Position numbers and translations under genes: made by a program. Of a stretch of 64,000 nucleotides of DNA, positions 32,811 to 49,856 are shown one piece after another (position 1 is the stretch's first letter; each line of letters opens with the position of its first letter). The stretch spans positions 1 through 64,000 of the forward strand of contig JABZFO010000186.1 of assembly GCA_014237405.1 (NCBI GenBank), written 5' to 3'. The notes beneath the pieces were generated by a model. It had not been told where the DNA came from. It did no database searches and worked only from the letters and a program-made list of their open reading frames with translations. Source of the stretch: Desulfosarcina sp. Its GTDB lineage: Bacteria; Desulfobacterota; Desulfobacteria; Desulfobacterales; Desulfosarcinaceae.

Positions 32811-32813
32811 TTT

Positions 32814-32977
32814 AGGGCCTCGGAAAAAATAAAATACACAGAAATGACGCAAGGATTTTTGTTCGTGTTAAAGGCGCGTCTAAGGGCGCAACCTTGTTGG
32901 TTGTAACCTTAGATGCAACGCAGAACACGGGCAAAAAGACAAGTAAGATCGTGGATTTTATTTTTGCCGCGGCCCTT
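32814..32977 (+). repeat. 165-bp covarying fold-back element, copy A
   Basis: It starts 3 bp after the gpgS stop with AGGGCCTCGGAAAAAATAAA and ends TTTTGCCGCGGCCCT. The outer ends pair. The inner arms pair as TTTTTGTTCGTGTT with AACACGGGCAAAAA. The central hairpin is GCGTCTAAGGGCGCAACC against GGTTGTAACCTTAGATGC. Three other copies are at 34153, 38024 and 47953. Confidence 0.85.
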
Positions 32978-33030
32978 ATTTTCAAACACACACAATTGAT
33001 ATGTGTGCTTCATGATAGGAGCGGATAGGT

Positions 33031-33633: not shown

Positions 33634-34172
33634 ACAAAGCGGTCTGCAACCGATCCACACTGATCAGAAAGGGCAGGGTGTTTGATTTCTACGCTGAGAA
33701 TATCACCCTGCCCAACGGCGTTACCATGGATATGGAGATCATCCGGCATCCCGGTGCGGCTGCCATTGTGCCGTTAATGGATGACCATACTGTTTTACTC
33801 CTCAAACAGTACCGTCATGCGGTGGATGGCTTTATCTGGGAAATTCCGGCAGGCACGCTGGATCCGGGGGAAGATGCCCGCCGGTGTGCCGAACGCGAAT
33901 TGACTGAGGAAACCGGGTACGCGGCCCGGCATTTTGAAAAGCTGGCCGAAATCACCCCTCTTCCGGCTTACTCAGACGAACGCATTCACCTGTTTTTGGC
34001 CACAGGTCTCACCAAGGCGGCACAGAATCTGGATGAAGACGAACTGCTCTTTGTTCATCGAGTAGACTTGAACCAGGCCATTGAAATGGTCGCTGAGGGG
34101 GATATCCAGGACGCCAAAACTATTGCCGGTCTGCAACTGGCTGCAGGCCTTAAGGGCCTCGGAAATAATTAA
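33630..34172 (+). CDS. NUDIX hydrolase, ADP-ribose pyrophosphatase type
   Basis: A 180-residue protein with a complete Nudix box: GTLDPGEDARRCAERELTEE followed by TGYA (G-x5-E-x7-REL-x-EE-x-G). The C-terminal part resembles ADP-ribose pyrophosphatase (PLPAYSDERIHLFLATGL). It is translationally coupled to the TPR gene. Its last six codons (KGLGNN and stop) are encoded by the end of fold-back element copy B, so the native C-terminus has probably been altered by that insertion. Confidence 0.92.
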   Translation: MNKAVCNRSTLIRKGRVFDFYAENITLPNGVTMDMEIIRHPGAAAIVPLMDDHTVLLLKQYRHAVDGFIWEIPAGTLDPGEDARRCAERELTEETGYAARHFEKLAEITPLPAYSDERIHLFLATGLTKAAQNLDEDELLFVHRVDLNQAIEMVAEGDIQDAKTIAGLQLAAGLKGLGNN

Positions 34173-34271
34173 ATCCACGATCTTACTTGTCTTTTTGCCC
34201 GTGTTCTGCGTTGCGTCGATGGCCACATACAACCAGTATGAAACCATCGACGCGCCTTGCCTGATCTTATA
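34153..34271 (-). repeat. 165-bp covarying fold-back element, copy B (truncated, inverted)
   Basis: It begins AGGGCCTCGGAAATAATTAA and contains CTTACTTGTCTTTTTGCCCG in the opposite orientation to copies A, C and D. The central hairpin is GCGTCGATGGCCACATAC against GTATGAAACCATCGACGC. The far end is missing: it stops at about 34271, where the convergent MFS gene ends. It supplies the NUDIX stop codon on one side and abuts the MFS stop on the other. Confidence 0.8.
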
Positions 34272-35385
34272 AAACGCCTGTGGCAAGGATGCCGCCGGCA
34301 TGCCACACCGCTCCGCCCATCAGCGCCCCGAGCACCCTCCCGATGCCTGCTGCGGCAAAAAAACCGGACATCATGGTCGCCCGGAAACCCGGCAGCATTT
34401 CGGTGCACAGGGAGAGGCTGGTGACTATGGTGAATTCGAAGGTGAAGAAAAGAATGGCCAGGCCGGTCATTGCCGTCGTCAGTGACATATCCAGAAAAGG
34501 CAGTGCGAAATAGCTCAGTATTGACAGGATTAAACCGGTGATCACCGCGCGCTTCAAACCAAAGCGGTCAGAAATCGCGGCGGTGAGACCCTCCCCCACC
34601 AGTTCCGCCACGCCGATAAGGCTGGTTCCCAACCCCAGTGCCACGATGCCGAGGCCGAAACCTTTTTCCAGCCACGCCCCGTAAACCACGAATAGATTGT
34701 CGTTGGCCGCACTGATAAAAAACGCGTAACCCAGTGCACCCAATGCGGGTTTGTTGGAAATCAGGCGCGAATAGGCGCCAAGGTATTCAGACGGTGATGC
34801 TTTTGGATGGGCGATATCAGGCTCTTTGGGAATGATGAAAAACAGGACGATGGCACCGATGCATCCCAATCCGCCCATGACCAGAAATGGCGATCGCCAT
34901 CCATACCTGTCAATGAGAATGGCCACCAGGGGGATGCCGATCAGCGTGCTGGCCGACCATGATGTCTCCAGAAGGCCGATCACCAAAGCCCGCCGGTTAT
35001 ACGGCACCCGGTTGGAGGCCCAGGCCTGCATTGCCGGATCGTAAATGCTTTTTCCCAGTCCGGCCAAAAACAGGGCCACCAGGACGACTGCATAAATGGG
35101 GAAAAATGCGGCGGCCAGCATACCGATTCCCGCCATGGCCAGCCCGGCGATCATCATTTTGCGGTAACCCAGCCGGTCGGACAGGGGACCGATAAGGGCG
35201 CCAAGCAGGGAGGTCACCTGATTGATGGCGATCAGGGAGGTGATGGACGACAGGGAGACGCCAAGCCCGCGGCTCAGAACCGGTGCAAAGGGGTAGACAA
35301 AGCGCCTGGCGGTATTAAGCACCAGCCGGAAAAAGGTGGTGCCGGCAATGGGCAGAAAGATGTGTGGTGGCTGACTATTGGACAT
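34267..35385 (-). CDS. Major facilitator superfamily transporter
   Basis: A 372-residue hydrophobic protein with about 11-12 membrane segments. The MFS signature between TM2 and TM3 is visible as GPLSDRLGYRKMMIAGL, and a repeat of it as TAAISDRFGLKRAVITGL in the second half. The N-terminus (FFRLVLNTARRFVYPFAPVL) is typical of uncharacterised MFS permeases. Substrate unknown. It is slightly short for the family and ends at the fold-back element, so a few C-terminal residues may have been lost. Confidence 0.86.
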   Translation of the reverse strand: MSNSQPPHIFLPIAGTTFFRLVLNTARRFVYPFAPVLSRGLGVSLSSITSLIAINQVTSLLGALIGPLSDRLGYRKMMIAGLAMAGIGMLAAAFFPIYAVVLVALFLAGLGKSIYDPAMQAWASNRVPYNRRALVIGLLETSWSASTLIGIPLVAILIDRYGWRSPFLVMGGLGCIGAIVLFFIIPKEPDIAHPKASPSEYLGAYSRLISNKPALGALGYAFFISAANDNLFVVYGAWLEKGFGLGIVALGLGTSLIGVAELVGEGLTAAISDRFGLKRAVITGLILSILSYFALPFLDMSLTTAMTGLAILFFTFEFTIVTSLSLCTEMLPGFRATMMSGFFAAAGIGRVLGALMGGAVWHAGGILATGVL

Positions 35386-37863: not shown

Positions 37864-38023
37864 TATATTGTCTCCTAAGTACCACCGGTTTAAAGTTCAG
37901 TATCCAGAATCCTAAAAAGCAGGCCCATATCTACTCGAGGCAGTTGGACAAGGTCAAGGTTTAGTTGAATCGAAGACAATTGATTGTGGGTCCGTGATGG
38001 AAATGAACGGTGAAAAATTGTTT

Positions 38024-38186
38024 AGGGTCACGGAAATAAAAAATTGACCTGAGATTGCGCCGGATATTGGTTCAGATACAAGGCGCGTCGATGGCTCCAT
38101 ACTTGGTTGTATGGGGCCATCGACGCAACGCCATAGCAGGACCAAGAGACAAGCAAGATGGGGCAATTTATTATTTCCGAGGCCCT
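38024..38186 (+). repeat. 165-bp covarying fold-back element, copy C
   Basis: AGGGTCACGGAAATAAAAAA to TTATTTCCGAGGCCCT. The inner arms pair as TTGGTTC with GGACCAA. The central hairpin is GCGTCGATGGCTCCATAC against GTATGGGGCCATCGACGC, nearly perfect over 18 bp. Its right end directly abuts the TGA stop of the minus-strand pilin-fusion gene. Upstream, 37864-38023 is featureless. Confidence 0.85.
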
Positions 38187-47917: not shown

Positions 47918-47952
47918 GATAATGCGATTTCAATCGCTGATTATTACACCTT

Positions 47953-48115
47953 AGGGTCGCGGAAACAAATAAATCCACAAAGATTGCGCCGGATTTGGGG
48001 TCGCCTTCAAGGCGCGCCAAATGGAGCGTATTTGTTATACGTGACTTTTGGCGCAACGCTGAAGACGGGCCAAAAGACAAGCAAGACTGTGGATTTATTT
48101 ATTTCCGAGGCCCTT
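47953..48115 (+). repeat. 165-bp covarying fold-back element, copy D
   Basis: AGGGTCGCGGAAACAAATAAATCCACA to TGTGGATTTATTTATTTCCGAGGCCCT, with near-perfect terminal pairing of 25-27 bp. The inner arms TTTGGGGTCGCCTTCA and TGAAGACGGGCCAAA pair. The central hairpin is GCGCCAAATGGAGCGTAT against ATACGTGACTTTTGGCGC. Its right end overlaps the TAA stop of the minus-strand assembly ATPase gene. Confidence 0.85.
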
Positions 48116-49856
48116 ACATCATCACCGCTGACACGGCTTCGTCGAGCGTCGTTTCTCCATCGAGCACCTTTTGCGTGGCATCATCCTTCAAGGTGCGCAG
48201 GTTGCCGGATTCCCTGGCGGCCCGCATAATTTTCTGGGACGATGCCTGCCGAAGGATCATTTCCTGAACCATTTCGTCGATGACCAGTATTTCAAATATT
48301 CCGGTCCGTCCCTTGTAGCCCTTGTCCATACAGTTAAAACAGCCTCTTCCATGAACAAAATTGGCGCCCTGTATCTTGTCCAACCCCCAGTAGGAGAGAG
48401 CGGCCCGGGGGGGCTTCCAGGGCTTTTTGCAAAATGGGCAGACTTTTCGAACCAAACGCTGGGCAATGGAAACCAACATCACCGAAGAGACAAGAAAAGG
48501 CTCGATGCCCATATCAATAAACCGGGTGATGGCTCCTGCCGCATCATTGGTGTGTACCGTACTCAACACCCGGTGGCCGGTGAGTGCACTTTGAACGGCG
48601 ATACCGGCAGTTTCCGAGTCGCGAATCTCTCCCACCATGATCACATCCGGGTCCTGGCGCATGATGGAACGCAGACCGCTGGCAAAGGTCATCCCCGCCT
48701 TGCGGTTGAGCTGGATTTGACGGATCTTGTTGACCCGGTATTCAACGGGGTCCTCAATGGTAATGATATTGATATCCGGCTGGTTGATTTTTTTGAGTAT
48801 GGAATAGAGGGTCGTACTCTTACCGCTTCCCGTGGGCCCGGTGCTCAAGATCATACCGTAAGGTTTGTTGATGATTGGCTCCAGTTTGCGAATATCCGCT
48901 TCGCTCATGCCAAGGTGCTCCAGCGAATAGACACCGCCGCTGGTGTCCAGCAGCCGCAGAACCATGTTCTCCCCGTAGATGGTGGGAATGGTTGACGCCC
49001 GGATATTGATCTCCTTGTTGTCCATGCGGATCGTAAAGCGGCCGTCCTGGGGAATCCGAGAAAGGGAAATATCCATGTTGGATAATATTTTAAGTCTTGA
49101 AATAATAAGAAGAATCAATGACTTGGGCGGAGCCGGCACCTCATGAAGCTTGCCGTCCACCCGGAAGCGCACCTGGACGAAATCCTTTTCCGGCGAGATG
49201 TGGATGTCACTGGCGCCCTCGCGAACGGCCTGGGAAAGGATGGAGTTAACCAGGCGAATGACCGGTGCCTCTTCCGCCATATCGTGAAGGGAGCTGACTT
49301 CCACATCCTCTGTAATGGCGGCCGGTTCAGTATCTTCGCTCTCGATCTGCATCTCGCTCATGCCGTCCAGCACCCCGCCAATGGCGGAATAGGTGCCATA
49401 AAGGCTGGAAATCATATGGTTGAGTTCCTGATAAGTACAGATTACCGCTTCCACCTCGATATTTGTGTACACTTCAATGGCGTCCAGGGCGTTGATATCC
49501 ATGGGATCGGTCATGGCGATCTTCAGCAGATGATTGGTCCGATCGATGGGAACCAACTGATATCTCTGGCACATCTCCAGTGGAATGACATTGGACAGGG
49601 TAATGTCAATGGGGTAGGCTTCCGGCCTGTACTTTTCGATGGCAAGCTGCTGGGAGACCAGGTTCACGATTTCGGAACTGTTGACAATCCCTTCGCGTAC
49701 CAGATATTCACCCAGCTTGATATTGCTGCGCTTGTGATCGACAACGGCCTGTTTAAGCTGCTCTTCGGTCAGCAGGCCGCCGTCGATGAGCATTTCGCCG
49801 AGTTTCTTCTTTTCTTTCATGTTTTCAATATCCTTTCCCCAGAAAAGGATCGGCAA
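48114..49856 (-). CDS. Type IV pilus assembly ATPase (MshE/PilB/GspE)
   Basis: A 580-residue hexameric ATPase. An N-terminal MshEN-type domain (about 14-160) is followed by the secretion-ATPase core with Walker A GPTGSGKSTTLYS, the Asp box, Walker B and HTNDAAGAITRFIDMG. A zinc-binding tetracysteine site is formed by VCPFCKKPW and GCFNCMDKGYKG. It powers pilus extension. The start is probably the second Met (MKEKKKLGEMLIDGGLL), about 36 bp downstream of the listed one. Its stop abuts fold-back copy D. Confidence 0.94.
   Translation of the reverse strand: MPILFWGKDIENMKEKKKLGEMLIDGGLLTEEQLKQAVVDHKRSNIKLGEYLVREGIVNSSEIVNLVSQQLAIEKYRPEAYPIDITLSNVIPLEMCQRYQLVPIDRTNHLLKIAMTDPMDINALDAIEVYTNIEVEAVICTYQELNHMISSLYGTYSAIGGVLDGMSEMQIESEDTEPAAITEDVEVSSLHDMAEEAPVIRLVNSILSQAVREGASDIHISPEKDFVQVRFRVDGKLHEVPAPPKSLILLIISRLKILSNMDISLSRIPQDGRFTIRMDNKEINIRASTIPTIYGENMVLRLLDTSGGVYSLEHLGMSEADIRKLEPIINKPYGMILSTGPTGSGKSTTLYSILKKINQPDINIITIEDPVEYRVNKIRQIQLNRKAGMTFASGLRSIMRQDPDVIMVGEIRDSETAGIAVQSALTGHRVLSTVHTNDAAGAITRFIDMGIEPFLVSSVMLVSIAQRLVRKVCPFCKKPWKPPRAALSYWGLDKIQGANFVHGRGCFNCMDKGYKGRTGIFEILVIDEMVQEMILRQASSQKIMRAARESGNLRTLKDDATQKVLDGETTLDEAVSAVMM

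Follow-up and report, generated by a model that had tools for sequence, protein, structure and literature searches.

Explanations of bacterial MITEs usually rest on their ends alone. MITEs that form long stem-loops are well documented, and the part of PMC2229807 drawn on here covers several families that resemble the element reported below. ERIC (IRU/RU-1), Correia/NEMIS and RUP are likewise dispersed elements of ~100-200 bp with a target duplication, and their transcripts form long stem-loops; YPAL/RU-2 of Yersinia (about 168 bp) is alike in size, in being palindromic and in having filled as well as empty sites in relatives (PMC2229807). In the consulted sections of the D. multivorans genome paper, palindromes are mentioned only in connection with CRISPR (PMC5109826), and we found no description of the present element in the open-access literature.

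The window, by which we mean the whole 64,000-nucleotide stretch of the Desulfosarcina sp. contig that was analysed, belongs to a genome assembly of 4.9 Mb in 201 contigs (92% complete, 4.8% contamination). A sequence-only reading of the window had described a fold-back element in four copies. Read directly, all four sites are real, three of them complete and one a remnant (Table 1), whereas "four" proved an undercount of a family that is far larger genome-wide. The outer ends and the box are as that reading described them, and both are more frequent in the genome than their controls. The box GACAAGNAAGA has 76 occurrences, compared with 9 of the reversed pattern; for the end motif GGGYCNCGGNAA and its control the counts are 229 and 52. 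BLAST returned at least 41 matches to the element, and a covariance model built on 49 copies gave 82 matches at E <=0.001 among 94 candidates scored, some of them partial. Those 49 copies were what remained of 65 machine-found end pairs lying 150-200 bp apart once 16 overlapping or chance pairs had been removed by hand; aligned, they are 160-178 bp long, and thus too short to encode a transposase, their ends are paired throughout, and by eye they fall into at least four subfamilies, several of which include a form ~17 nt longer. The further statement that the middles of the copies differ completely did not hold, as GGATTTT-like, AAGGC and AAC blocks around the hairpin are common to the copies and the hairpin stem sequence is identical in two of the four in the window.

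Table 1. Features of the four element copies in the window.
Feature	Position	Strand	Basis or remark
Target duplication TTA, left of copy 1	32812..32814	.	direct reading and flank comparison
Copy 1, complete element, GCGTCTAAGG-hairpin subfamily	32815..32975	+	covariance model R1, 160.5 bits
Target duplication TTA, right of copy 1	32976..32978	.	direct reading and flank comparison
Copy 2, remnant with right end, box and hairpin; left part gone	34154..34275 (upper limit approximate)	-	
TTA left of copy 3; right flank TCA, flanks non-identical	38022..38024	.	
Copy 3 (feature under study), complete element	38025..38185	+	R1, 152.2 bits
Copy 3, left terminal inverted repeat / outer arm	38025..38050 (inner limit approximate)	+	
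Copy 3, conserved core (G-GA ... GA-C), the part common to elements with other ends	38062..38150	+	
Copy 3, central hairpin with adjoining AAGGC and AAC	38085..38126	+	
Copy 3, box GACAAGCAAGA	38148..38158	+	
Copy 3, right terminal inverted repeat / outer arm	38160..38185 (inner limit approximate)	+	
Target duplication TTA, left of copy 4	47951..47953	.	
Copy 4, complete element, GCGCCAAATGG hairpin	47954..48113	+	R1, 176.6 bits; site empty in relatives
Target duplication TTA, right of copy 4; doubles as stop codon of minus-strand ORF 48114-49856	48114..48116	.	

Partial and composite forms accompany the complete copies. Solo ends are frequent (L116, L124, L126-L128, L178, L179, L187-L190 and L439 3101-3135) and consist of TNA joined to about 13-31 bp from the outer edge of the element, beyond which the sequence is unrelated; several lie directly before a gene start. 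A 53-bp mini-element at L027 (about 1486-1538) has both ends and the box, with TAA on each side, and lacks the core hairpin. Another palindromic repeat, built on CCATAGAAAACC...GGTCAGAG or CCTGGCCCAGAGGACCAGG, accompanies broken copies, within or next to them, at L075, L117, L118 and L188, and in the window's genome the left flank of L078 holds a fragment of another end type (AGGGTTCGCGCAAAAATAA) that abuts a window-family copy.

The element is a non-autonomous DNA transposon (MITE) by its anatomy: it is short, has terminal inverted repeats, duplicates its target and is missing from corresponding sites in relatives, so that the "mobile palindrome (MITE)" of the sequence-only reading stands. 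Of the 49 hand-selected complete copies, 36 have the same 3 bp on both sides (20 TTA, 13 TAA, 2 TCA and 1 CAA), whereas the flanks of the other 13, window copy 3 (TTA/TCA) among them, differ. TNA is present on both sides in 39 pairs, and its middle base is common to the two sides in 35 of these, whereas 20,000 shuffles averaged 17.0 and never exceeded 27. Empty sites were sought with the joined flanks of eight of 14 prepared sites in 13 genomes, the element's own included, and four of the eight were spanned by single matches in relatives. An exact single TNA was found at four of the 13 aligned junctions, representing three sites: L045 in G002, L006 in G012, and window copy 4 in G009 and G008, both of which have a single TTA. 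A filled GTATAA-161 bp-TAAGCCC thus corresponds to CTATAAGCCC in G002, and a filled CTTTA-161 bp-TTA to CTTTAACA in G012. At the other nine junctions, including all four at the L011 site, the insert is absent and the junction is something other than an exact single TNA. At that site (G001:C1, about 7314744-7314917) G001 has a member of its own subfamily almost where G000 has an unlike copy, several relatives being empty; it is possibly an insertion hot spot. Finally, among neighbouring genes that point their 3' end at the element, seven of 34 have an ORF that stops exactly at the element boundary (counted from the listing). Since TNA always contains a stop codon on one strand, this suggests that insertion often meets, and rebuilds, a stop codon. 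Exact boundaries are seen at 48114-48116 in the window and at L001, L016, L018, L066, L074 and L095.

The interior of the element is not confined to this family. The same hairpin core of ~90 nt (AAGGC...AAC, with conserved U.G pairs) is present in sulfate reducers as well as in records from gamma- and zetaproteobacteria, bounded by roughly a dozen different types of ends. Genomes of the same genus or family have ends GGCTGGCGG, GGTTGCCGG, GGATTGGGG, GGCGATTGG or AGGGTTCGCGC, which the opposite side matches more or less fully. A core-only model at E <=1e-4, run with strict filters and 13 candidates scored per genome, found matches in at least 54 of 297 sampled genomes of the window's phylum and in at least 41 of 199 genera, and the exact core pattern occurs in at least 118 stretches of named genomes, with the best named matches in Desulfobacterales MAGs. 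Among the matches listed are Desulfobacterales, Desulfobulbaceae, a Syntrophobacterales MAG, Methylococcales, Bathymodiolus gill symbionts, Mariprofundaceae, Thiotrichaceae, Candidatus Venteria, Chromatiaceae and one Patescibacteria MAG; because most of these records are MAGs, isolated odd taxa may be contamination. Phages, plasmids and viral contigs gave no match to the queries used. A wider set of 109 further elements was assembled from 84 of 92 named-genome matches and 25 core-model loci. Of these, 95 match one of 20 typed ends with no more than 20% mismatch, although a few assignments look loose, the types having been named by eye and then matched, with script-drawn ends that sometimes overrun the true end into flanking dyads; 12 end groups contain at least two elements each when two GGARCGAGGAT types are merged. 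One element in G001 (L439 355-513) is, by eye, an apparent chimera whose left and right ends come from two different families, and ends are probably exchangeable at the core through recombination.

The consensus fold is one long hairpin with conserved internal loops, described here by eye. In the loop nearer the base, 5' GCC-G-GA lies opposite 3' GA-C-AA with a lone G-C pair in the middle, and in the loop nearer the tip AAGGC lies opposite AAC-GCN. The matched arm changes that had been noted between the window copies are a general property of the family: across the 49 own-genome copies, double changes that preserve pairing occur in one copy or more at 19 of the 45 predicted pairs. When 28 cores were compared across families whose ends differ, 26 of 32 pairs had changes on both sides and one U.G pair was kept in 25 of the 28. 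Double-change cells in these cores number 157, compared with 49.1 (sd 6.4) when partners are shuffled and 35-59 when the register is slid, although shared ancestry among copies means that cell and copy counts overstate independent events. In 92 model-aligned cores the corresponding numbers are 416 and 115.1 (sd 8.8), in an alignment that leans to the structure, in which most rows have the search pattern on the left side in common and three pairs are open in over half of the sequences. The claim of covariation beyond expectation across many copies therefore survived the shuffle and slide comparison.

The fold also distinguishes the two strands. RNA folding gave the plus strand the lower minimum free energy in 49 of 49 own copies (mean -76.8 vs -62.7 kcal/mol), in all of 28 others (25 from other genomes and three second-family copies of the own genome) and in 107 of the 109 further elements; with orientation set from plain sequence alone, the plus strand folded better in 94 of 103, with nine exceptions. 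The same asymmetry appears in mismatches counted with the arms paired by Watson-Crick rules only, which treats the strands alike. Isolated G.T mismatches exceed A.C mismatches by 68:29 in own copies, by 60:12 in the 28 others and by 165:53 in 101 of the 109 further elements (outer arms 88:27, core 77:26), and A.C prevails only in a minority of the untied sequences: 6 of 37 in own copies, 3 of 25 in the others and 11 of 76 in the wide set. On a tree of own copies, 38 Watson-Crick pair losses went to GU and 17 to AC, a count that rests on a structure predicted with GU allowed and so favours GU, whereas unpaired columns lean the opposite way, 39 to 52.

Could such a palindrome be a simple by-product of paired ends, whose arms are kept alike by template switching or gene conversion, with a fold that has no function of its own? 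MITEs are commonly palindromic, the ends of this family drift in concert, and correction of palindromes is a known process. Correction should clear both kinds of mismatch, however, yet G.T outnumbers A.C ~3:1 on one strand, an excess that is not expected of a palindrome kept only as double-stranded DNA and that is predicted by selection on a folded single strand rather than by arm-to-arm copying in double-stranded DNA. Nor would it account for the U.G pair conserved in most cores, or for the AAGGC and AAC blocks, which stay conserved while facing each other unpaired, and the unpaired sites of own copies show no matching mutation bias. We consider an ordinary MITE of this kind unlikely. Selection on the fold is well supported, and the proposal of the sequence-only reading that selection or copying acts at the level of structure is borne out by the covariation and the strand asymmetry together. 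That a core folded on one strand is common to elements with very different ends suggests that the fold itself is under selection.

An RNA-like, strand-specific pattern of conservation is also what would be seen if the element were a structured RNA that serves the host within nearby transcripts, in stability, processing or attenuation, and had been spread by transposition; Correia/NEMIS and YPAL are linked to transcript processing or stability in the part of PMC2229807 drawn on here. Across 91 places, however, the orientation of the element to neighbouring genes shows no overall constraint (sense 16, antisense 23, convergent 12, divergent 19, from crude ORF calls). The left neighbour is on the minus strand more often in the own genome (31 vs 10) and not in other genomes (18 vs 22), so this bias is not general. 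Searches of Rfam at the gathering score gave no match in the window and a single tRNA among 20 loci; weak matches to microRNA and snoRNA families were dismissed as chance. The emptiness of the checked sites in relatives also argues against a host RNA, and we regard it as somewhat less probable again than the ordinary MITE. With gene orientation unconstrained overall and a core that outlives changes of the ends, a role of the fold in the element's own spread is preferred over one in host transcripts. In the complete genome G001, 34 of 58 listed copies are co-oriented with replication for an origin at 0, and no assumed origin gave a significant result.

The searches for a mobilising enzyme covered PF01609, PF13586 and PF01797, and an autonomous partner with the same ends, which had been suggested as something to look for, was found for a second core-bearing family and not for the window family. 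No partner was recovered from the end motif around the six PF01609 loci of the genome, from inverted ends at 30 PF01609 loci of relatives (a single G001 IS accounts for 15), or from both kinds of scan at 20 more G001 places chosen for other transposase lengths, and PF13586 had zero matches in G000. Scanning the collected loci for TNA plus GG inverted ends 0.5-4 kb apart returned 15 pairs, the five best of which were examined. Pairs at L347, L011 and L016 are neighbouring elements or end remnants, and the intervals at L385 and L396, from one MAG, have only short repeats in common. A separate end pair, 2.78 kb apart in G001, consists of an apparent chimeric element and a separate end remnant. 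Twenty unpaired end motifs, some of them chance occurrences, showed no convincing second end within 2-7 kb of context each.

The sequence-only reading had also offered a REP with a TnpA-like partner. A REP/BIME-like or IS200/IS605-derived palindrome would travel as single-stranded DNA, mobilised by a Y1 HUH protein (RAYT/TnpA), and a strand-specific fold with conserved unpaired bases does resemble the substrates of such proteins. Transposition by Y1/HUH enzymes makes no target duplication, so the 3-bp duplication argues against this origin and, together with empty sites that hold one TNA, largely refutes it. None of the five PF01797 loci in the genome has a TNA-preceded family end in the sequence examined (up to 1.5 kb on each side). 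We judge this route very improbable.

The second family is ~143 bp long, with ends AGTGTCCGTCCAGAAAC and the same inner blocks as the window family. At L052 1072-1214 a copy with ATTT flanks is nested inside a member of the window family; a second copy has AGTT flanks, and a third (L069) is without a clear duplication. An IS in G007 (L198 469-2145) has ends AGTGTCTATCC / AGTGCCCATCC that match this family and a fitting 4-bp duplication, AATT, and its 452-aa ORF is an ISNCY-type transposase (NF033593, 430.7 bits vs a cut-off of 325). L137, in the own genome, is an IS with second-family ends at which a visible duplication is absent. The core is absent from the end stretches of L198 that were read. 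The likely enzyme for the second family is thus an ISNCY-type DDE transposase. We rejected the window family as an ISNCY-derived MITE: it has GGGYCNCGG ends and a 3-bp TNA, and the ends of L198 differ.

Several lines of evidence thus favour a reading, to which we give a probability of roughly 60%, in which these elements are MITEs with a covarying, strand-specific core under many kinds of ends, served by a trans-acting transposase and a functional folded single strand. A transposase encoded elsewhere would act in trans on the ends, and the folded single strand, either RNA or single-stranded DNA exposed during replication or movement, may itself be functional, most likely for the element's spread. 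If this is true, some small transposons carry a functional single-strand structure whose core is better kept than their ends. The core then offers a testable target for how MITEs attain high copy number, and the core family a marker for the movement of mobile elements among sulfate reducers, methanotrophs, and sulfur or iron oxidisers.

Comparison with known systems places the family among bacterial MITEs and sets it apart from each. YPAL, compared by description only, has internal inverted repeats and duplications of 3-26 bp, unlike the window family (PMC2229807, in the part drawn on). The MITEs of Ca. Thiomargarita nelsonii are similarly high-copy in a sulfur bacterium, but the part of PMC4853749 consulted gives them 10-bp direct repeats with 19-bp inverted repeats, or TATAG repeats, again a comparison by description only. 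Unlike ERIC, Correia/NEMIS and RUP, the window family has a 3-bp TNA duplication and ends that drift yet remain paired, and here one core is common to families with very different ends. Among eukaryotes, CORE, V and Deu-domain SINEs combine a conserved central domain with different ends that fit different mobilising partners. We raise as a tentative possibility that the core is a bacterial counterpart of such central domains: a portable mobility or persistence domain of MITEs that would be recognised as a folded single strand, combine with ends for different transposases, swap ends by recombination, and in this way have spread over sulfate reducers and gamma- and zetaproteobacteria. SINEs are retroelements, whereas the core-bearing elements described here look DNA-transposed, and the likeness is an analogy only.
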